Origin: an uncultured Trueperaceae bacterium
GTDB taxonomy: Bacteria > Deinococcota > Deinococci > Deinococcales > Trueperaceae
Assembly: GCA_937907415.1 (NCBI GenBank)
Contig: CALCHY010000338.1
Location: 1-9,180, forward strand
Direction of reading: 5' to 3'
DNA: 9,180 bases
The notes under the pieces are model-generated. The model saw nothing but the letters and a program-made list of their open reading frames with translations, was not told where the DNA came from and searched no databases. This document shows, one piece after another, positions 352 to 9,032 of the stretch. Within the stretch, counting starts at the first letter, position 1, and each line of letters opens with the position of its first letter. A program made the position numbers and the translations under genes.

Positions 352-1179
352 ATGAAGAGTCATCGGTCGAAGTACTCACTCTTGCGCAAGTCCTCTCGTG
401 GCGCCGCGGCGGCGTTGGCGCTCCTCGCCCTCACGTTAGTTGGTTGCCGCCCGCAGCAGCAGCCGGACCCGGCGTCCGTTGACCGCGTTGGCTTGGTGCT
501 CCTCAGCCAGGCCACTGAGGTCGGGGCGCCTGCTGGTCAGGCGACCTTCGTTGAGCTCACCACTAAGCGCGCGGAGGAGCTGATGGGCAGCCCGTTCGGT
601 GCGCAAGTCGGCACGTGTGACGTGTCGGCTGCCGCGGCCCCTACCGGCGGCAGCGTGATCGGCGCGCCCAGCGGCAATCGGTTGTTAGCGGGCACCATCC
701 AGCTCCTTACGGGCGCCACGGATTACGGTTCGCTAGAGCGCGGCCCGGACGGTCGCTACTCACTACCAGCGGCCCTTGCGCCGCTCCCGACCGACGGCCT
801 TTCTCTGCAACTAGCAGCCACTGGCGCTTTCCCCGCGTTCAACAACGTGACGGTCGCCACCGGCAAGACGCCCACGTTGCAGGGGTTCGACGCCGCGAAC
901 ATCACGGTCAACACGCGGTTCGGCTGGACGCCCGGCGGCGCCAACTCGGCGATCATCCTCGTCGGCTCAGACGGCACCGTTGCCTTCTCTTGCGTGGCTG
1001 ACGACTCCCTCGGTGCCTTCAGCTTCCCTGAGGCTACGCGCGCCGAACTCACGAACGCTGGCTTTGGCACGGGTTCACTCGACACCCTCGGGCGCCTGAC
1101 CACGACCCAGGCGCGCGCCAGCTCGGCGCTTCTGGTAGTCGGCGCGTTACGCCTCGTCAACCTCGGAACGGAGCCGTGA
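352..1179 (+). CDS. Lipoprotein of unknown function, first gene of the polysaccharide operon
   Basis: This 275-aa protein is exported and lipid-anchored. It has a basic n-region (K2, R5, K7, R12, K13, R16), a hydrophobic Ala/Leu stretch at residues 17-30 and lipobox LVGC with Cys32 as the modified residue. The mature part is rich in Ala, Gly and Thr, has no transmembrane segment and contains just two more cysteines, C89 and C214, which could form a disulfide. The pattern of short beta-like stretches (around 43-52, 198-215 and 258-270) suggests a small beta-rich domain. I do not recognise the family. It starts behind a good ribosome binding site, and its TGA overlaps the GTG of the deacetylase gene by four bases, so the two are probably translationally coupled. 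An accessory role at the cell surface in polymer export or modification is inferred from this coupling only. Confidence 0.85.
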   Translation: MKSHRSKYSLLRKSSRGAAAALALLALTLVGCRPQQQPDPASVDRVGLVLLSQATEVGAPAGQATFVELTTKRAEELMGSPFGAQVGTCDVSAAAAPTGGSVIGAPSGNRLLAGTIQLLTGATDYGSLERGPDGRYSLPAALAPLPTDGLSLQLAATGAFPAFNNVTVATGKTPTLQGFDAANITVNTRFGWTPGGANSAIILVGSDGTVAFSCVADDSLGAFSFPEATRAELTNAGFGTGSLDTLGRLTTTQARASSALLVVGALRLVNLGTEP

Positions 1180-4166
1180 GCCGCGTGAAGCAGGGCCGGA
1201 ACCCCAACCGCAGACAAGTGCCGGTAGCGGCGCTACGCATGCTCATAACGTTCGTTGCGCTAGCCGCCGTGCTCGTTGCATGCAGCACCAGCCCCGCAGT
1301 CACCAAAGCCGAAGACGCGCGCAAGGAAGTGCCAGCGCCAACCCACGCGACTGAGCCGTGGAATCCCTCGGTTGTTGTCCCACGCGGTCCGTTCTACTCC
1401 GCTCCGCTCCACCTCGGCACCATTCCGGAGGGCGAACCGCAAACGTGGTTGAGGCCGCTCGGGGTGGGCGACAAAGTCGAGATGAAGGCGCTGCTCATCT
1501 CAGCGACCAACAACGCGGGGGAGATAGAGCCCTCTACCGGCGCCTGGATAGCGCTGCTCGAGCAGACGGGCACGCCGTACGACTGGTTCGTGGCGTCAGA
1601 AGAGACCCTCACGCCCGACAGGCTCGTGCGTGGTGACGGGGTCGGGCGCTACCAGGCCATACTGCTTAGCACCAGCAACCTCGTCTACGCCCCAGCTTGG
1701 GAGTCCGCACTGGACTCAGGCGAGTGGGAGCTTTTGTTCAACTACGAGCGCGACTACGGGGTGCGCCAGGCAACGCTTTACGGGGCGCCCTACAGTGCAC
1801 CTGAGGATCTCGGAGTGGGCATTTGGACGCCGTCCGACTTGGATTCTGCGGTCCTAACGCCGACGGCGGCTGGCCTGACCGTATTCAACGACCTTCCCGC
1901 TGGCAGCGAGATCGACGTGTACGGAAGCGATGGATTCCCGAGCCGCGACCCCCTGCCCGGCACCACTCCACTGCTCATGGCTGGCGACGACATCCTCGCC
2001 TTGCTTACCGAGACCGACGGGCGCGAGCGCGTGACGATGCTGTACAACAACCCGGCCTGGGGCGCATCGAACACACCAGCCATCTACACCCAACAGATCG
2101 GGGCCTCGCTCTTGCGTTGGGCGATGCGCGGCGTGCACATCGGCGAGCGGCGCGCCAGCTATCAGGCCGACGTCGACGACTGGTTCAGCAAGACCGGCTT
2201 CTGGGACGTTGGAGTTGGCGGTATCAGCCAAGACGTCGAGTTTGAAATGGATGCCCAGGACGCCTACAGCCTCGTGGCCCAACAACAGGGCCTACGCACG
2301 CTAGGCGGCGGCATTGCCCCAGGTTTCACTTGGGCGATGGCGTTCAACGGTGATAACGCCGAGCCAAGCAGCATCATCGACTGCGAGCTACCCGCCTCGT
2401 CTCACACCCTCTCGAGCATGACGAGGTGCTTGGCTGGCGAGTTCCGCTGGGTGAACCACACCTGGAGCCATGAGTACATGGACTGGATCCCTGAACTGCC
2501 CGATCCTGGCCCGAACTATGACGAGATAATCACCGAGATCAGCAATAGCGACAACCTCGCCACCGCAATGGGCCTCGACCCGACCAACTCGGTACGTAGC
2601 CTCGTTACTGGCGACATCTCCGGCCTCGGCTGGTACGCGCCGGGAGGGCCGGACACCGGCCCGAAGGTCGACTTCGGCCTCGATCACTCGAGCCCATACC
2701 TGCTGCAAGCCGTGGTCGACAGTGGCCGCAGCTACCTGGCGTCCAACATGTCGACCCCAAGCCATGAGCCCGACTGCTGGGCCTGCGGCATCGAGCACCC
2801 GATGAACGCTGCCGTGTTCCTAGTGCCACGGTGGCCGACTAACCTGTTCGCCACCGTCACCACGCCTGAAGCCGTTACGCAGGCCTACAACATGACGTAC
2901 GGGCCGGGCGGCACTGAGCCCATCCCCGGACTGACTCAGCCGCTCAGCTACGAAGAGATCCTGGATCTCGATACCGACATCGCCCTGGTCCACCTTCTCT
3001 CCGGCTCGCCGTACCCGCACTACTTCCACATCCCCAACTTCTACGAGTACGAGGCGGGCAGATCAACGCTCTACGACTGGACCGCAGCCTTGTTCACCAA
3101 GTACGCCGCGGTGGCCAACGAGCCGCTCCTCTCGTACACGAACGACGCCTCCGGCGATTACGTGCGCGCCCGCACCGAGTTCCTAGCCACCGGAGTCACC
3201 GGCGTATGGGACCGCATGACGAACACGGTGACCCTCACCGCCGCGAACGCCGGGCCGGTGTTCTTCACGGGAGCGTCGCTTGGCAGCGGCTCGACCGACC
3301 TCGCCTACAACGGTCGCGTGATCTCGCAGCGCGAGTTCAGCGCCGGGCAGTCCGTGACGTTCAGTGTCGGACCGGCAGCGCCGCCCGTGATGCCCGTCAT
3401 CGGAACGTTCGCCGCTGACCCAGCTGCAATCAATGCCGGCCAAACCACGCAACTCCGTTGGAGCGTCACCGGCAGTGCCACCAGCCTCGCGGTGCGCGTG
3501 AAGGGCGGCAGCGTGGTTGAAGCGGGCCTCCCTGACGCAGGCAGTCTCACCGTTAGTCCAACGGCGACCACGACTTACGAACTCGTGGCTAGCTGGACGG
3601 GCGGCTCCGACGTAGTGGCCGAGGTCACCGTCGCCGTCACGCCTGCACCCCTCATCACCAGCTTCAGCGCTTCACCAGCCGCCATCACGGTGGGCGAGAG
3701 CACCCAACTCAACTGGACCGTCACCGGCACCGCAACGAACATCGCCCTGCGCGTGAAGGACAGCGCGGAAATCGTAACGGGCCTACCGGCCAGCGGCAAC
3801 CACGCCGTCAACCCAACGGCGACCACGACTTACGAACTCGTGGCTAGCTGGACGGGCGGCGCAGATGTCATTCGCGAAACGACGGTAACCGTCGCACCCG
3901 CGGTGGACCCTGAGGTCGTGATGCACACCCTGACGCTCGAACTGTCCGGCAGCGGCTTCGGGGTAGTGATAACCAGCCCGAACGGCGCCGCTTGCATCGA
4001 CGAGTGCGAGATCGAGGTTAAGGCCGGCACGACCATCACCCTCGCGCCCGTCGCGTTGCTCGGCTCGACCTTCGACGGCTTCACTGGCGCCTGCGACGGC
4101 GTCACCTGCACCATCACGCTCAGTGCCGACGCAACCATCGGCGCCCGCTTCGAGTTCAAGGACTAG
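1176..4166 (+). CDS. Agd3-like (CE18-type) polysaccharide deacetylase lipoprotein with Ig-like and C-terminal repeat domains
   Basis: This 996-aa surface lipoprotein probably removes N-acetyl groups from an aminosugar exopolysaccharide. The signal peptide carries lipobox LVAC with Cys36. Residues about 100-325 form an N-terminal module that may correspond to the carbohydrate-binding part of Agd3. The deacetylase core spans about 326-660. ADVDDWF (331-337) supplies the Asp pair and NHTWSHEYMDW (427-437) supplies H428-xxx-H432, the usual metal-binding Asp/HxxxH arrangement of polysaccharide deacetylases. YPHYFHIPN (613-621) is a possible later active-site motif. The long spacing and surrounding sequence resemble Aspergillus Agd3 (CE18) more than classical CE4 enzymes. 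Two Ig-like domains follow (about 741-822 and 827-907, 85-residue period), then a domain like the divergent InlB B-repeat family (about 914-996) with four cysteines (940, 944, 973, 978). The GTG start overlaps the previous stop. The alternative Met22 would leave a signal peptide without a basic n-region. The CE18 assignment is by eye. Confidence 0.75.
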   Translation: MSRVKQGRNPNRRQVPVAALRMLITFVALAAVLVACSTSPAVTKAEDARKEVPAPTHATEPWNPSVVVPRGPFYSAPLHLGTIPEGEPQTWLRPLGVGDKVEMKALLISATNNAGEIEPSTGAWIALLEQTGTPYDWFVASEETLTPDRLVRGDGVGRYQAILLSTSNLVYAPAWESALDSGEWELLFNYERDYGVRQATLYGAPYSAPEDLGVGIWTPSDLDSAVLTPTAAGLTVFNDLPAGSEIDVYGSDGFPSRDPLPGTTPLLMAGDDILALLTETDGRERVTMLYNNPAWGASNTPAIYTQQIGASLLRWAMRGVHIGERRASYQADVDDWFSKTGFWDVGVGGISQDVEFEMDAQDAYSLVAQQQGLRTLGGGIAPGFTWAMAFNGDNAEPSSIIDCELPASSHTLSSMTRCLAGEFRWVNHTWSHEYMDWIPELPDPGPNYDEIITEISNSDNLATAMGLDPTNSVRSLVTGDISGLGWYAPGGPDTGPKVDFGLDHSSPYLLQAVVDSGRSYLASNMSTPSHEPDCWACGIEHPMNAAVFLVPRWPTNLFATVTTPEAVTQAYNMTYGPGGTEPIPGLTQPLSYEEILDLDTDIALVHLLSGSPYPHYFHIPNFYEYEAGRSTLYDWTAALFTKYAAVANEPLLSYTNDASGDYVRARTEFLATGVTGVWDRMTNTVTLTAANAGPVFFTGASLGSGSTDLAYNGRVISQREFSAGQSVTFSVGPAAPPVMPVIGTFAADPAAINAGQTTQLRWSVTGSATSLAVRVKGGSVVEAGLPDAGSLTVSPTATTTYELVASWTGGSDVVAEVTVAVTPAPLITSFSASPAAITVGESTQLNWTVTGTATNIALRVKDSAEIVTGLPASGNHAVNPTATTTYELVASWTGGADVIRETTVTVAPAVDPEVVMHTLTLELSGSGFGVVITSPNGAACIDECEIEVKAGTTITLAPVALLGSTFDGFTGACDGVTCTITLSADATIGARFEFKD
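3558..3605 (+). repeat. Exact 48-bp direct repeat, copy 1
   Basis: Identical to 3813-3860 at all 48 positions, including synonymous third-codon positions. It encodes the segment from Pro of SPTATTTYEL to the TGG before the domain end. The DNA on both sides differs between the copies. Confidence 0.9.
3813..3860 (+). repeat. Exact 48-bp direct repeat, copy 2
   Basis: Second copy of the 48-bp repeat, exactly 255 bp downstream of the first and in the same reading frame. Identity at synonymous sites points to recent duplication, gene conversion or slippage between the two Ig-like domains. Confidence 0.9.
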
Positions 4167-4210
4167 GACTGCGCATGCTAGTGGCCGCACTCCCACCACT
4201 CGCCTTCCGT

Positions 4211-4256
4211 CGCCAGCGCGGAGGTCACGGTCTTGCCGTGGCCACCGCCGCTGGCG
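4211..4256 (+). other. Nested stem-loop between the deacetylase and pelF-like genes
   Basis: Outer arms CGCCAGCG (4211-4218) and CGCTGGCG (4249-4256) are perfectly complementary. Inside them GGTCACGG (4223-4230) pairs with CCGTGGCC (4236-4243), with one G-U wobble, around a 5-base loop. The structure lies in the only non-coding gap of the operon (4167-4277) and ends 8 bases before the next ribosome binding site. No T-tract follows, so it is not a standard intrinsic terminator. It may protect or process the mRNA or set expression of the downstream genes. Confidence 0.55.
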
Positions 4257-4264
4257 CGGTGCGC

Positions 4265-4269
4265 GGGAG
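4265..4269 (+). promoter_or_regulatory. Ribosome binding site that fixes the pelF-like start
   Basis: GGGAG lies 8 nt before ATG 4278. This favours that start over an in-frame TTG at 4233, which is buried in the stem-loop and would add 15 residues not expected in the family. Confidence 0.65.
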
Positions 4270-4277
4270 CTAGCGTC

Positions 4278-5693
4278 ATGCAGATCCTGCTCACAACGGA
4301 AGGCACCTACCCGTCGATCATGGGTGGCGTGAGCACGTGGTGCGATCAGCTCGTCAGGGGCATGTCCGACTACGACTACCACCTGCTCGAGGTCACAGGG
4401 CCGCTCCCAACGGAGCCCGCCTACTCTCTGCCAGCCAACGTCGGGGCCCTCACCTCGGCGCGGCTCTGGACCCCGCGGGCGGCGCGTTCCGGCCGCGGGG
4501 TCAAGGCCGAGTTCGAGTTCAGGAACGGGCTCGAGAACCTCCTCGGGTTCGCAGATGACGACATCAAGTCTTTCGCTAGGGGCCTGCTAGACCTCGCCAC
4601 GCTCGGCACCACCGTCGACTTGTGGCCGTATTTCGACAAGCCGTCCACCTGGGATGCCGTGCGCTTCGCCATCTGGCGCGCCAACGGCGAACAACCGCCA
4701 ATGGCCGAGGTGGCGTTATCCGTCAATTGGCTCAAGGGTACCCTCGGGCCCCTGCTGTTCATCCCCGCCGTCGCCGACCAGGCGCACACGACCTCCAACG
4801 GCTTGTCGGCCATTCCGGCCTGGTTGGCGGCCAAGGCGCACGGCATCCCGCTCATGCTCACGGAGCACGGGCTGTACTTGCGCGAGCGTTACCTGAGCCT
4901 CACGAGCGAAGGCAACCCGCCAGGCATGAAGCTCTTGCGTTCGCGCTTCTATCTCACCCTCGCTCGCCTCATCTATGAAGACGCCGACCTCGTCGTGTCC
5001 GTTAGCGAGTTCAACCGCACCTGGCAGATCGAGTTGGGTGCCGCGGCGGAGAAGACCCGCGTGGTCTACAACGGAGTGGCGCCAGAGGCGTTCCCCGAAG
5101 CGGCGTGGCATGCCGACCAGGCGCCGACGGTGTCGTGGGTCGGGCGCATCGACCCGATCAAGGACCTCGAGACGCTCGTTCGTTCGTTCACGACCGTCAC
5201 GCAGGTGGCGCCGGAGGCTCGCCTCAAGCTCTTCGGGCCGGTGCCGAAGGGCAACGAGGCATACAACGCCAAGGTGAGACGCCTCGTCGAGGAACTCGAT
5301 CTCTCCAAGTCCGTGACCTTCGAGGGCCCCGTGAAGCCCGTTCACACCGCGTATCACGCGGCCGACGTCGTGGCGCTTTCGAGCATCTCCGAGGGCTTCC
5401 CCTACGTGGCCATCGAGGCCATGATGTGCGGCCGGCCAGTGGTGGCAACGCAGGTCGGGGGCGTGGGCGAGGCTGTCGGCGATTTCGGCCGCATGGTCGA
5501 CCCGCGGGCGCCCGAGGAGTTCGGCACCGCCCTCGCTGAACTACTAGTCGACGTGCCGCTGAGGCGTCGCCTCGGTGAGGGCGCCAGGGAGCGCGCGCTT
5601 AGCCTCTTCACGCTCTCGCGCATGTACGACGGCTACCGCGGACTGTACGGCGAGATGGGCTCGCGCTCCAGCCGCGTTGGGTTGGCGCGGTGA
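4278..5693 (+). CDS. pelF: PelF-like family GT4 glycosyltransferase
   Basis: This 471-aa cytoplasmic GT-B glycosyltransferase is the probable polymerising enzyme of the locus. PelF of the Pel system uses UDP-activated N-acetylhexosamine/galactosamine sugars. The N-terminus, LLTTEGTYPSIMGGVSTW (4-21), is the PelF hallmark (EGTYP followed by a GGVS glycine loop). LTEHGLYLRERY (194-205) continues the family pattern. The C-terminal half has SVSEFN (241-246), YNGV (264-267), VGRIDPIKDLETL (288-300) with the phosphate-binding Arg290 and Lys295, and SEGFPYVAIEAM (371-382), whose E372 and E380 form the EX7E motif of retaining GT4 enzymes. The length is close to that of known PelF. There is no signal peptide or membrane segment. 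The gene follows a 111-bp gap with a stem-loop and ends in a GTGA overlap with the membrane-protein gene. The donor sugar cannot be read from sequence. Confidence 0.85.
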   Translation: MQILLTTEGTYPSIMGGVSTWCDQLVRGMSDYDYHLLEVTGPLPTEPAYSLPANVGALTSARLWTPRAARSGRGVKAEFEFRNGLENLLGFADDDIKSFARGLLDLATLGTTVDLWPYFDKPSTWDAVRFAIWRANGEQPPMAEVALSVNWLKGTLGPLLFIPAVADQAHTTSNGLSAIPAWLAAKAHGIPLMLTEHGLYLRERYLSLTSEGNPPGMKLLRSRFYLTLARLIYEDADLVVSVSEFNRTWQIELGAAAEKTRVVYNGVAPEAFPEAAWHADQAPTVSWVGRIDPIKDLETLVRSFTTVTQVAPEARLKLFGPVPKGNEAYNAKVRRLVEELDLSKSVTFEGPVKPVHTAYHAADVVALSSISEGFPYVAIEAMMCGRPVVATQVGGVGEAVGDFGRMVDPRAPEEFGTALAELLVDVPLRRRLGEGARERALSLFTLSRMYDGYRGLYGEMGSRSSRVGLAR

Positions 5694-7015
5694 GCCAGCC
5701 GGTCGCTTACACTCCACCCGATTACGTGCCCCCAGAAGTGGCGGCTAGCGACTGGGACGGACCTGAGCGCCGCAGCCGCGCGCCGGTCGACCAACTCGGC
5801 CGTTCACTCAACCTCCTCTGCCTCGAGGCGAGCGGACCGTACGAGATCGTCGCCCACCTCGAGGCGCTCGGTTACAACAGCGCATCGGCGCTGGCGCGCT
5901 TCGGGGTAAGCAGCCACTTCGAGTTGGCGCACCAGCTTTACGAGCGCACGCCGCGCATCCGCGACCGCTCCAAGGTGAAGCGTAAACGCACTGGCGATTG
6001 GGCAACGCCGGTGGCCATGGGCTTAGCGTTCGTGGCCACTTTCCTTCTCGGAGCCTTCAGCCAGGTCGAGATGCTGGCGCCCGCCATGGTCATCCTCGTG
6101 TGGTCGCAGGTTGGCGCCGCCATGCTGCAGAAGGCCAAGGGAGAACTGCTGCGGACCGAGCAAGGCGTCGTCCTCGCGTTCCTCGTGCAACTGGGCATAC
6201 TTGCGATAGTCGGGAGTTGGACACTGCTGCAGTACGGGTTAGCGACCCTCGCCCCGACACTGACGTGGTTCGCGGTCGGCGCGCTGCTGTGGGCAGAGAG
6301 GCGGGTCGCGGCATTGACCGTTCCGCTGCTCGTACTGCTTGGCCTCGTACTAGCCACGCTGCTCCCCGTGCCTGCAGTGATGCCGCAACTGATCGTGGTC
6401 GTCGCCGTGGCCGCAATGTGCTTGCCGCTCGCGTGGCGCGATACGCGGCCCATCTTCGATTGGTTGCGCCGCAGCATCGGCGTTGCTCTGCACCCGTTCC
6501 TCTACGGCGTCGGACAGGGGCTGCTCATCCTGGCGCTTCTGCGCCACGAGGACCCGGCTGGCGACGTGGTGCCTGGCGGGGTCCTATTGCTCCTGGTGCT
6601 GTTGCTCTCGCAACGCTTCCTCATCATGCTCAAGGCTGCGCTCACGGCGCGCCTGTGGCGCTCGACCAGCGCGTCCGGGTTCCGCACGTACGCGCATGCG
6701 GCGTTGTTCGTTTACGTCGGCATGTACGTCCTGCCGCTGCTTGCCGCGCTGATCATCGAGGCGGTGCTGGGCGTGGGGGGCTGGCACTTCTACTGGTTCG
6801 CTTTCGGCCTCTTCGGCCTCAGCCTAGGCATCTCGGTCGTTGGTTTCGCGCTCGGGAACCCGGCCGGGGCGAGCATCCCGTTCCTGCTCGCCGGCGTGGC
6901 GGCGGTGGCTGGCATGCCGTTCTTGGTGGTCAGCGCCTGCCTCGCGCTTGTCTTGCTGCTCGTAGCCCAGTTGCGCGTCAGGCAGGTGGGCCGCTATGCC
7001 GTCTACCTCCTCTAG
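5690..7015 (+). CDS. Polytopic membrane protein with a small cytoplasmic N-terminal domain, at the position of a PelG-like exporter
   Basis: This is a 441-aa integral membrane protein. Residues 1-34 are polar and probably disordered. Residues about 35-92 form a small soluble domain (VAHLEALGYNSASALARFG around 54-72, then FELAHQLYERTPR at 77-89). A basic stretch, KVKRKR (95-100), precedes roughly 11-12 hydrophobic segments from 106 to 427, a count like that of PelG and other MOP-type flippases. The N-terminus does not look like PelG, and I cannot name the family. Its GTG start overlaps the pelF-like stop by four bases, without a strong ribosome binding site, so translation is probably coupled. 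Being fused in transcription to the glycosyltransferase, it is the best candidate for moving the nascent chain across the membrane or tethering the synthase. That role is inference. Confidence 0.8.
   Translation: MSQPVAYTPPDYVPPEVAASDWDGPERRSRAPVDQLGRSLNLLCLEASGPYEIVAHLEALGYNSASALARFGVSSHFELAHQLYERTPRIRDRSKVKRKRTGDWATPVAMGLAFVATFLLGAFSQVEMLAPAMVILVWSQVGAAMLQKAKGELLRTEQGVVLAFLVQLGILAIVGSWTLLQYGLATLAPTLTWFAVGALLWAERRVAALTVPLLVLLGLVLATLLPVPAVMPQLIVVVAVAAMCLPLAWRDTRPIFDWLRRSIGVALHPFLYGVGQGLLILALLRHEDPAGDVVPGGVLLLLVLLLSQRFLIMLKAALTARLWRSTSASGFRTYAHAALFVYVGMYVLPLLAALIIEAVLGVGGWHFYWFAFGLFGLSLGISVVGFALGNPAGASIPFLLAGVAAVAGMPFLVVSACLALVLLLVAQLRVRQVGRYAVYLL
6984..6989 (+). promoter_or_regulatory. Ribosome binding site of the PelA-hydrolase-like gene
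   Basis: AGGTGG lies 6 nt before ATG 6996, inside the end of the preceding gene. It supports this start. An in-frame TAG at 6963-6965 and the absence of any other start codon between it and 6996 rule out a longer protein. Confidence 0.55.
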
Positions 7016-7709
7016 GTCTCACCCCGACCTCCTCGTCTACTACGGTTCCGGCGAGGTGGCGACCCTCGCACGGCACAAGCGCGTGGTACTGCAGGCCGAT
7101 CACTACTTCCCGTCCGACATCAAGCTCCTCGCCGCCCACGGCACCCAAGCGTTGGCCTACTTGTCGTTGGGTGAGGACACGGGCCCCGAGGCGCCGTGGC
7201 AACTCGCCGAGCGCAACCCCATCTGGGGCGGCCATTACGTAGACCCGGCTCACCCTGAGTGGTTGGCTCACGTGCGGGCGCAAGCAGAAGTGGCGTTGGC
7301 TGACGGCTTCACCGGGCTGCTGCTGGACACGCTCGAGACTCCGCCCATGTTGGCGGGCGGTCGGGTGGCTTTGGTGACGCTACTAAGCGAACTGCGCGGC
7401 GTGGTCGGCGACGGCTACCTGTTAGCCAACCGCGGTCACCACCTGCACCGCGAGATCGCGCCGTTCGTTGACGGCTTCTTGTTCGAGTCGTTCTCGACGA
7501 CGTGGGAGGACGGCTACCGCGCGCTGCGCGGCCGCGAGCTCCTCGACAACGCCACCCGCCTGCGGCTACTGCAGGCTACGGGCCGTGAGGTGTACGCCCT
7601 GGATTACGCCAACAAGCCAGACTTGGCGGACTTCGCGGTGCAGCGCGGCACCCACCTCGGGCTGCGCGTTCAGGTCACGAACCGTAACGTCACCGGCTTG
7701 CCGGGCTGA
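6996..7709 (+). CDS. PelA-hydrolase-like glycosidase (GH166/GH114-type TIM barrel) without signal peptide
   Basis: This 237-aa single-domain protein resembles the N-terminal hydrolase domain of PelA, an endo-alpha-1,4-N-acetylgalactosaminidase. The order of motifs follows a TIM barrel: LLVYYGSGE (12-20), ALAYLSLGE (52-60), WGGHYVDPAHPEWLAHV (77-93), GFTGLLLDTLE (104-114), LLANRG (142-147), VDGFLFESF (158-166) and VYALDYANK (199-207). D111, E114 and E164 are the obvious catalytic candidates. Known relatives are usually exported, but this one has no signal peptide, and an in-frame stop 31 bases upstream of the ATG excludes a hidden one. It would therefore stay in the cytoplasm unless it is exported unusually or held by the membrane protein whose gene it overlaps by 20 bases. 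It may trim or proofread chains inside the cell, or be inactive. The family call is by eye. Confidence 0.75.
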   Translation: MPSTSSRSHPDLLVYYGSGEVATLARHKRVVLQADHYFPSDIKLLAAHGTQALAYLSLGEDTGPEAPWQLAERNPIWGGHYVDPAHPEWLAHVRAQAEVALADGFTGLLLDTLETPPMLAGGRVALVTLLSELRGVVGDGYLLANRGHHLHREIAPFVDGFLFESFSTTWEDGYRALRGRELLDNATRLRLLQATGREVYALDYANKPDLADFAVQRGTHLGLRVQVTNRNVTGLPG

Positions 7710-7716
7710 ACAGCGG

Positions 7717-8886
7717 CTACCTGCAGGAGGTGCGGGCAGCGCCGAGGTTCCAGTCCTTCAGGATGAAGTCCATGTTCAACGCAATCGCTTTGGAGCAGAA
7801 GCTGCCGGTCGAGAGTTCGTACTCGGCGCCGAACACGGCCTTGCCTGCTTGAATGAACGGCGTGAGCAGCTCGCACTCGTTCCAACTGAAGCACTCCTCG
7901 TTGATGGCGAAGTCGAAGTAGTCGACGAGGTCGCGCACTTGATCGAGGTCGTTCTTGAGGGCTATGGCCAGGCCGCGTTCGTGCGCGGCGTTGGCCAGCC
8001 AGCGGTTGTAGGCCAACTGGTCGGCGGCGCGCAGGCTGAAGCCGGTGTCGTTGGCGTAGCCGTCGACGTTGTCTGGCTCCACGGCGTCGCAGCCCTTGGC
8101 CTTGGCTAGGTCGAGGCGGCCGAGCATGACGGGTGCCAGGGCGTCGATGGCGCGGATGTCGAGCCACTGCTCAGGCCAGCCGTCCATCGCCTTGCCCTTC
8201 ACGGACGCGGGGAAGAGCCCGGCGTCGGAGCGGACCGACTCGAAGCTGCCTGCGCTGAAGTAGCAGATGACGCGGCGCCCGGCAGCGTGGAGCTGCGCGA
8301 TGGTTTCCGCCGACGTGAGCTCGAGGTCGATGTCGTACACGTCCGCCTCTACGCTCAGGTCAAGCTTCCCGCTTAGCTGCCACTGCCACGAAGTACCCGG
8401 CCTCGGCCGCCAGATCTCGCCGGTCGGTGTGGTTGGCGGCGTCTGGTCCGTAGTGGCCGCAACTTCGAACTCGGCGCGCGCGACGGTGGTGCCACCGTCT
8501 AGGTCGTGCAGTTCGCCGATGATGACGTGCCTGCCCTCGCCAAGGTCGTCAAGGCGTAGCGGTTCGCCGTCTGGCATGGGGGTGAATGGGGCGGTGTCGT
8601 CGCGGCGGATTCTCACTTGCTCGCCGGCAGAGTCCTCTACGAAGAAGTCGACGAACTTCAGCTTCGACTCCGGTTCGGTCACGAACACGTGGAGTTCGCC
8701 GTTGACGCGCTGACCGTCGAGCGGGAACGCTTGGTCAAGCGATGCGTGGTGGCTGGCGAGGATCATCCCGGCGGCCACTTGCGGCGCCGCCGTCGCGGAG
8801 CAGCCAGCGGCCAGAGCCACGAATAGACTGCCGATGAGTAACGTGATCATCTTGGCTTTGCCGCTGCTCCCGGGTTTGGCGTTCAT
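7717..8886 (-). CDS. GH114 endo-alpha-1,4-polygalactosaminidase lipoprotein with N-terminal Ig-like domain
   Basis: This 389-aa exported protein probably cleaves galactosamine-containing polysaccharide at the cell surface. The signal peptide has basic residues K10 and K12, hydrophobic stretch 13-27 and a lipobox-like AAGC with Cys29. Residues about 42-145 look like an Ig-like or similar beta-sandwich domain. After a Thr/Pro linker, the GH114 TIM barrel runs from about W159 to the end: VICYFSAGSF (206-215), GCDAVEPDNVDGY (265-277), LAIALKND (306-313) and FAINEECFSWNE (326-337). Acidic residues at 267-275 and E330/E331 are the likely catalytic groups. C208, C266, C332, C338, C364 and C388 could form disulfides. 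I chose ATG 8886 because GGGGAAG lies 6 nt upstream. ATG 8937 has no ribosome binding site and would add 17 residues. It is convergent with the operon, 7 bp between stops. Ega3 of Aspergillus is a characterised GH114 enzyme. Confidence 0.85.
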   Translation of the reverse strand: MNAKPGSSGKAKMITLLIGSLFVALAAGCSATAAPQVAAGMILASHHASLDQAFPLDGQRVNGELHVFVTEPESKLKFVDFFVEDSAGEQVRIRRDDTAPFTPMPDGEPLRLDDLGEGRHVIIGELHDLDGGTTVARAEFEVAATTDQTPPTTPTGEIWRPRPGTSWQWQLSGKLDLSVEADVYDIDLELTSAETIAQLHAAGRRVICYFSAGSFESVRSDAGLFPASVKGKAMDGWPEQWLDIRAIDALAPVMLGRLDLAKAKGCDAVEPDNVDGYANDTGFSLRAADQLAYNRWLANAAHERGLAIALKNDLDQVRDLVDYFDFAINEECFSWNECELLTPFIQAGKAVFGAEYELSTGSFCSKAIALNMDFILKDWNLGAARTSCR

Positions 8887-8892
8887 CTGCAG

Positions 8893-8899
8893 CTTCCCC
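8893..8899 (-). promoter_or_regulatory. Ribosome binding site that fixes the GH114 start
   Basis: On the minus strand the sequence reads GGGGAAG and ends 6 nt before ATG 8886. It is a moderate match, but the upstream alternative ATG 8937 has none. Confidence 0.45.
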
Positions 8900-9032
8900 G
8901 CTTCTCGAGGCCTTGTCGGGAGCAAGTTGCGGCACATGTAGACGAAAAAGCGGCTTTGCCTACTCGAACCGGTTGCGCCACTCGCTCCACCCGGCCCAGG
9001 CGCCCAGATACAGACCGGGTTTTATCGCGTTT

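Follow-up and report, generated by a model that had tools for sequence, protein, structure and literature searches.

Gene content and conserved enzymes of the locus

The window, i.e., the whole 9,180-nucleotide stretch of contig CALCHY010000338.1 from an uncultured Trueperaceae bacterium, contains a putative exopolysaccharide locus of six genes. In the list of open reading frames (ORFs), a lipoprotein (LP), a deacetylase (CE), a glycosyltransferase (GT), a membrane protein (MEM) and a hydrolase-like TIM barrel (TIM) are encoded on the + strand, and a glycoside hydrolase family 114 (GH114) lipoprotein is encoded convergently on the − strand. This gene set, which probably builds and trims a sticky, partly deacetylated galactosamine polymer of the biofilm, is closer to the kit for fungal galactosaminogalactan (GAG) than to the classic Pel kit of bacteria. 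The proteins named in an original prediction, made from the sequence alone, were all recovered at their positions by ORFs and by Pfam, NCBIfam and PDB matches, and its idea of a fungal-GAG-like tool set (CE18 with CBM87, and GH114) around a PelF-related GT4 enzyme was supported.

CE (1176–4166, + strand) is a 996-aa lipoprotein deacetylase of the Agd3 type. Pfam CBM87_Agd3 matched at 30.7 bits (cut-off 27.6), and the CE fold of Agd3 (CE18) was found together with this module (the structure model covers residues up to 740). The Asp-Asp and HxxxH motifs of the original prediction were located at D334-D335 and H428xxxH432, and the residues of the Agd3 catalytic motifs CM1–CM4 (D377, D378, H510, H514, R613 and H668) aligned with D334, D335, H428, H432, R552 and H618 of CE, respectively. 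CE18 also appears to be connected with human NDST1, and a 2024 paper on NDST1 already names Agd3 (PMC10864358). The predicted GH114 lipoprotein (7717–8937, − strand; a start at ATG 8886 is also possible) was likewise borne out, with a Pfam GH114 score of 279 bits, a lipobox-like N-terminus and a PDB match to an endo alpha-1,4 polygalactosaminidase (6ojb, E 7.5e-57). Its Asp289 and Glu347 occupy conserved catalytic places and were present in 15/15 aligned rows.

TIM (6996–7709, + strand; 237 aa) is the PelA-hydrolase-like (GH166-like) barrel of the original prediction, and its best PDB match was PelA (5tcb, E 7.5e-15). D111 and E164, equivalent to D160 and E218 of PelA, were kept in 26/26 rows, and a profile comparison gave 99.1% against a pair of PelA-hydrolase-like proteins encoded in pel loci. 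An assignment to spherulin-4 was rejected, as that similarity was weak (58.6% probability over 67 columns). TIM thus shares the barrel and the Asp/Glu pair of the PelA hydrolase family, and the export signal was not found. A simple hydropathy score was computed for the N-terminal 45 residues of TIM and the N-terminal 70 of CE and GH114, and TIM starts were set by rule at the Met near a conserved motif. From these starts, a hydrophobic N-terminus was found in 0/24 TIM rows (maximum hydropathy 1.2; truncated loci L074 and L080 omitted), compared with 24/26 CE rows and 10/12 GH114 rows at 1.8 or more. In our reading of the rows without a visible signal, CE of L062 and L078 and GH114 of L083 seem to be started too far upstream, and GH114 of L081 runs off the end of its locus. 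Lacking a recognisable export signal, TIM would therefore sit across the membrane from PelA and is apparently cytoplasmic, as judged from its sequence. Its gene is also closely packed against MEM: in the window, the TIM start overlaps the MEM end by 20 nt. Among the 24 rows with chosen starts, the overlap was exactly 20 nt in 12 and 11–23 nt in three, while TIM began 1–24 nt after MEM in seven and lay about 2 kb away in two.

Glycosyltransferase and membrane protein

GT (4233–5693, + strand) is a PelF-related GT4 enzyme whose PelF-like N-terminus makes ATG 4278 a likelier start than 4233. It matched Pfam DUF3492 at 154 bits and NCBIfam PelF at 178 bits, exceeding the cut-off of 100, whereas a PelG-associated PelF scored 688. 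In a tree of 47 rows, from which the two truncated loci were also omitted, 30 module-type GTs formed a single branch (99/99) comprising the window, 25 of the 27 Deinococci loci and four plasmid loci. The adjoining branch (99/96) held eight PelFs that neighbour PelG and one Paenarthrobacter protein (the eight alone: 88/54), and both branches were separate from eight other GT4 proteins (97/84). Because the branches of some outgroup rows are very long, the root is less certain than the division itself. The original prediction had named a position outside the PelF clade as a finding that would count against it; the window GT did score over the PelF cut-off, but in this tree it fell outside the clade of PelG-neighbouring PelFs, in a sister clade. 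The automatic label ‘PelF’ does not imply PelG or Pel. On the Paenarthrobacter plasmid pTC2 (L100, 4426–9696), a PelF-family GT lies beside a GHL15-family protein, galE and a putative integral membrane protein, and this stretch has no gene annotated as PelG.

MEM (5690–7015, + strand; 441 aa), which is absent from the text of the original prediction, is central to the locus. An N-terminal segment conserved in the alignment (about residues 25–90) precedes 12 helices, and the structure model (pLDDT 85.5) matched the MOP superfamily (MATE/MurJ/Wzx), predicting a 12-helix MOP fold. MEM had no Pfam or NCBIfam match, including PF16933 (PelG). By hhalign, the probability against PelG was ≤ 1.5, whereas seven PelGs kept out of the profile scored 97.8–100; these seven were used in a repeat of a first comparison in which the divergent control PelGs had been profile rows. 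The combined profile left out MEM of L061 (over-extended start) and of L075, in which the gene consists of two overlapping pieces (7446–8836, genome G072). An identity of MEM with PelG was thus rejected at the sequence level. The two may nevertheless share distant common descent, both possibly having a MOP fold, and a sequence search of the PDB gave no relative of PelG. A source name calls PelG ‘Wzx-like’. The database protein P0142 has the MEM N-terminal segment in common, with a dissimilar remaining membrane part and 24% identity overall.

Distribution in the class and on plasmids

The survey covered 111 genomes of the class, for which no completeness was given. At E 1e-3, the PelF model matched 107/111 genomes and 14/14 controls and did not separate PelF from other GT4 proteins; only the PelF cut-off did so (27/111 genomes, 1/14 controls). 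MEM occurred in 27/111 genomes, the same 27 as PelF over the cut-off. PelG (PF16933) was found in 0/111 genomes, with Thermotoga maritima matched among the controls. PelD (PF16963) exceeded its cut-off in 0/111, although no control genome matched it either, and its one below-cut-off match was in a genome without the module (G036). The Agd3_CE model matched 20 genomes at E ≤ 1e-3, all of them among the 27 with MEM, and five more that this model missed carried CE at the locus according to a CE profile made for the survey (G031, G032, G037, G053 and G073).

In the stretches examined, GT was present in 27/27, CE adjoined in 24/27 and a short TIM lay within about 2 kb in 24/27, including one that a contig end truncates. 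GH114 was found in at least 11/27 loci with the window protein as the sole query. The gene order, for which the original prediction had proposed a genome survey, was kept in relatives; therefore, the clustering is not due to chance. Close kin were found in uncultured Trueperaceae (Deinococcota), with a MEM 67% identical to that of the window in L001 and GTs 82% and 81% identical in L061 and L062.

Module-type loci were also found on plasmids of Deinococcus ficus, Deinococcus sp. QL22, Streptomyces californicus, Kocuria rosea and Thermus brockianus. Three of these carried nucleotide-sugar enzymes, and the two actinobacterial ones a spherulin-4 protein. CE was confirmed by profile in 4/4 (L090 and L093 from D. 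ficus and Kocuria, and the pair L092 and L102 from QL22 and Streptomyces). MEM was confirmed by profile only in QL22 and Streptomyces (L102 and L092); it was uncertain in D. ficus and Kocuria (L090 and L093), with no hmmsearch match and hhalign values of 53.8% and 79.4%. The T. brockianus plasmid pTB1 (L094) is probably not independent of contig C2 of genome G054. In Kocuria rosea, the cluster lies between two genes with the same transposase protein accession (L093, 4562–5362 and 12830–13630) on a plasmid typed as mobilizable.

Comparison with known systems

Bamford et al. (2020; PMC7229062) reported agd3 in 45 species of bacteria, Deinococcus-Thermus and Actinobacteria being among the groups represented, and 30 of the 35 agd3 genes in their tree lay within or close to operons that contain carbohydrate-active enzymes. 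Every operon identified there encodes a multi-spanning membrane protein besides a cytoplasmic GT, and GH114 was highly consistent. The window has this same set (a CE18 and CBM87 deacetylase, GT, multi-spanning membrane protein and GH114) and belongs to the kind described in 2020, so that the original prediction of an undescribed variant did not hold; the exporter-like MEM and apparently cytoplasmic hydrolase make it an informative variant. Three features go beyond that paper's description of these operons, although its supplement or Figure 8 may show them: MEM has a MOP-like fold, it is paired with a GT from a sister clade of PelF, and the PelA-hydrolase-like protein is leaderless. Likewise, the titles and abstract openings among the matches listed held no prior account of the MEM family or the leaderless hydrolase, either of which may be in the same supplement or figure.

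The Aspergillus fumigatus GAG cluster (uge3, sph3, ega3, agd3 and gtb3) similarly has a separate Agd3-type deacetylase and an Ega3-type GH114. It differs in having the putative transmembrane protein Gtb3 (PMC4817252), where the window has a PelF relative and a separate MOP-fold protein, and Sph3 (GH135), where the window has a GH166-like barrel. The PelABCDEFG system of Pseudomonas shares a PelF-related GT and a PelA-hydrolase-like barrel with the window, which, in contrast, has no bifunctional PelA and no PelG or PelD. PelB and PelC had no Pfam or NCBIfam match among the six window genes, to which this search was confined, and no PelE was seen among them. Gram-positive pel loci carry pelF and pelG (Whitfield et al. 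2020, PMC7112168; companion survey, PMC7112194), and some of these loci are known to encode the PelA deacetylase and hydrolase in separate genes (PMC7112168). In Bacillus cereus, the locus is composed of pelDEADAFG and pelAH, and PelAH has a signal sequence (PMC7112168). The window resembles this locus in encoding deacetylase and hydrolase apart and in having a GT of the PelF superfamily, but it differs in its Agd3-type deacetylase, a hydrolase without a signal, and a class without PelG or PelD over the cut-off.

Proposed pathway and alternative explanations

It seems fairly probable that the locus synthesises and exports an alpha-galactosaminyl-type exopolysaccharide, partly de-N-acetylated, and also trims it. 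The computations establish the enzyme families, the order of the genes, the missing TIM signal and the conserved catalytic residues, from which the substrate, the polymer, the membrane topology and the roles of MEM and TIM are inferred. In this scheme, GT would polymerise a UDP-sugar, most likely UDP-GalNAc, in the cytoplasm, and MEM would replace PelG in transport across the inner membrane, with its conserved N-terminal segment perhaps docking GT or the hydrolase. The lipid-anchored CE would then strip acetyl groups outside the membrane, yielding a cationic polymer whose deacetylated stretches the GH114 lipoprotein could cut. TIM may cut the acetylated chain on the cytoplasmic side for chain release, length control or the clearing of stalled polymer. 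These loci would form a coherent class of bacterial GAG-like systems set apart from Pel by their own transporter family, GT clade and Agd3-type deacetylase. With a leaderless hydrolase beside the exporter, tractable Thermus or Deinococcus strains would allow a direct test of what hydrolases contribute to synthesis.

Several observations weigh against this scheme. The Agd3_CE score of the window deacetylase was 23.5 bits, just below the cut-off of 27.6, though fold and residues fit, and the best Foldseek E-value for MEM was only 0.014. The six window genes included neither an epimerase, unlike the A. fumigatus cluster, nor a known outer-membrane export gene (Pfam and NCBIfam). CE was not beside GT and MEM in G076 (near a contig end, with CE elsewhere in the genome), G098 and G099, and in the latter two Agd3_CE matched nothing at E ≤ 1e-3, although this model also missed the five CE-bearing genomes above. 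A short TIM near MEM was lacking in G059 (MEM at a contig end), G010 and G100, and the last two imply that TIM is not strictly required. From the first possible TIM start, L064 (2.36) and L067 (1.74) gained a hydrophobic beginning, as did L083 slightly (1.23). Finally, Sph3 and Ega3 are membrane-bound and act on extracellular polymer (PMC12054363), which speaks against a simple cytoplasmic parallel with TIM.

The longer readings of L064 and L067 bear on the most serious rival, in which the leaderless hydrolase has been misread or leaves the cell by an unrecognised route and acts outside like PelAH, its overlap with MEM being mere operon packing. The hydropathy score was simple, starts were chosen by rule and non-classical export is conceivable; even so, we regard this rival as rather unlikely. 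The same score detected a hydrophobic N-terminus in CE and GH114 of the same module and none in the 24 TIM rows, the extra stretch in L064 and L067 falls inside the end of the MEM gene, and the window TIM has no ATG, GTG or TTG in frame upstream before the stop at 6963. Moreover, the spherulin-4 proteins of the two actinobacterial loci also lacked a clear signal (1.50 and 1.08), and the Kocuria one directly follows the membrane gene with a 4-nt overlap. The polymer itself may not be simply galactosamine-based, related enzymes acting instead on another amino-sugar polymer (glucosamine-containing, or mixed with galactose like fungal GAG). This appears improbable, given that two galactosaminidase-type hydrolase families co-occur with their catalytic pairs kept and that the Agd3-type carbohydrate-binding module and CE occur together. 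Least likely of all is a true Pel locus with PelA split into two genes and the Pseudomonas or Bacillus machinery rearranged, the split having been part of the original prediction. The PelF-family GT4 over its NCBIfam cut-off, the PelA-like hydrolase and the separate PelADA and PelAH of B. cereus (PMC7112168) would suit such an arrangement. It was rejected on the type of the deacetylase, which matches Agd3, the missing signal on the hydrolase, in contrast to B. cereus PelAH (PMC7112168), and the absence of PelG from the 111 genomes of the class; in addition, PelD did not exceed its cut-off there, MEM could not be aligned to PelG and GT lies outside the PelG-associated PelF branch.

Within the scheme of a galactosaminyl-type polymer exported by MEM, a broader proposal is more speculative and, in our judgement, doubtful: PelF-type synthases may have twice taken different MOP-fold partners, giving a PelG-independent export route in which a transporter-coupled, cytoplasmic GH166-like glycosidase serves synthesis or chain release. 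Fungi that lose sph3 no longer make GAG, through a mechanism described as unclear (PMC7329490), and TIM is a candidate for an Sph3-like function. If the PelG-independent route were real, it would offer a bacterial parallel to this unexplained requirement for the hydrolase Sph3.

Other features

LP (352–1179, + strand) is a 275-aa lipoprotein of unassigned function, with a lipobox-like N-terminus and no Pfam match, and its gene end overlaps the start of the CE gene. Relatives of LP at E ≤ 1e-4 (phmmer) were confined to L061 and L062 among the 27 loci. In genome G076, Agd3_CE matches lay on eight contigs (C101, C448, C179, C580, C95, C577, C351 and C437), none of which is the contig carrying GT, MEM and TIM (C85). 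In the two closest relatives of the window, the LP–CE pair occurs twice in tandem (L061, 9131–19708; L062, 1030–14846).
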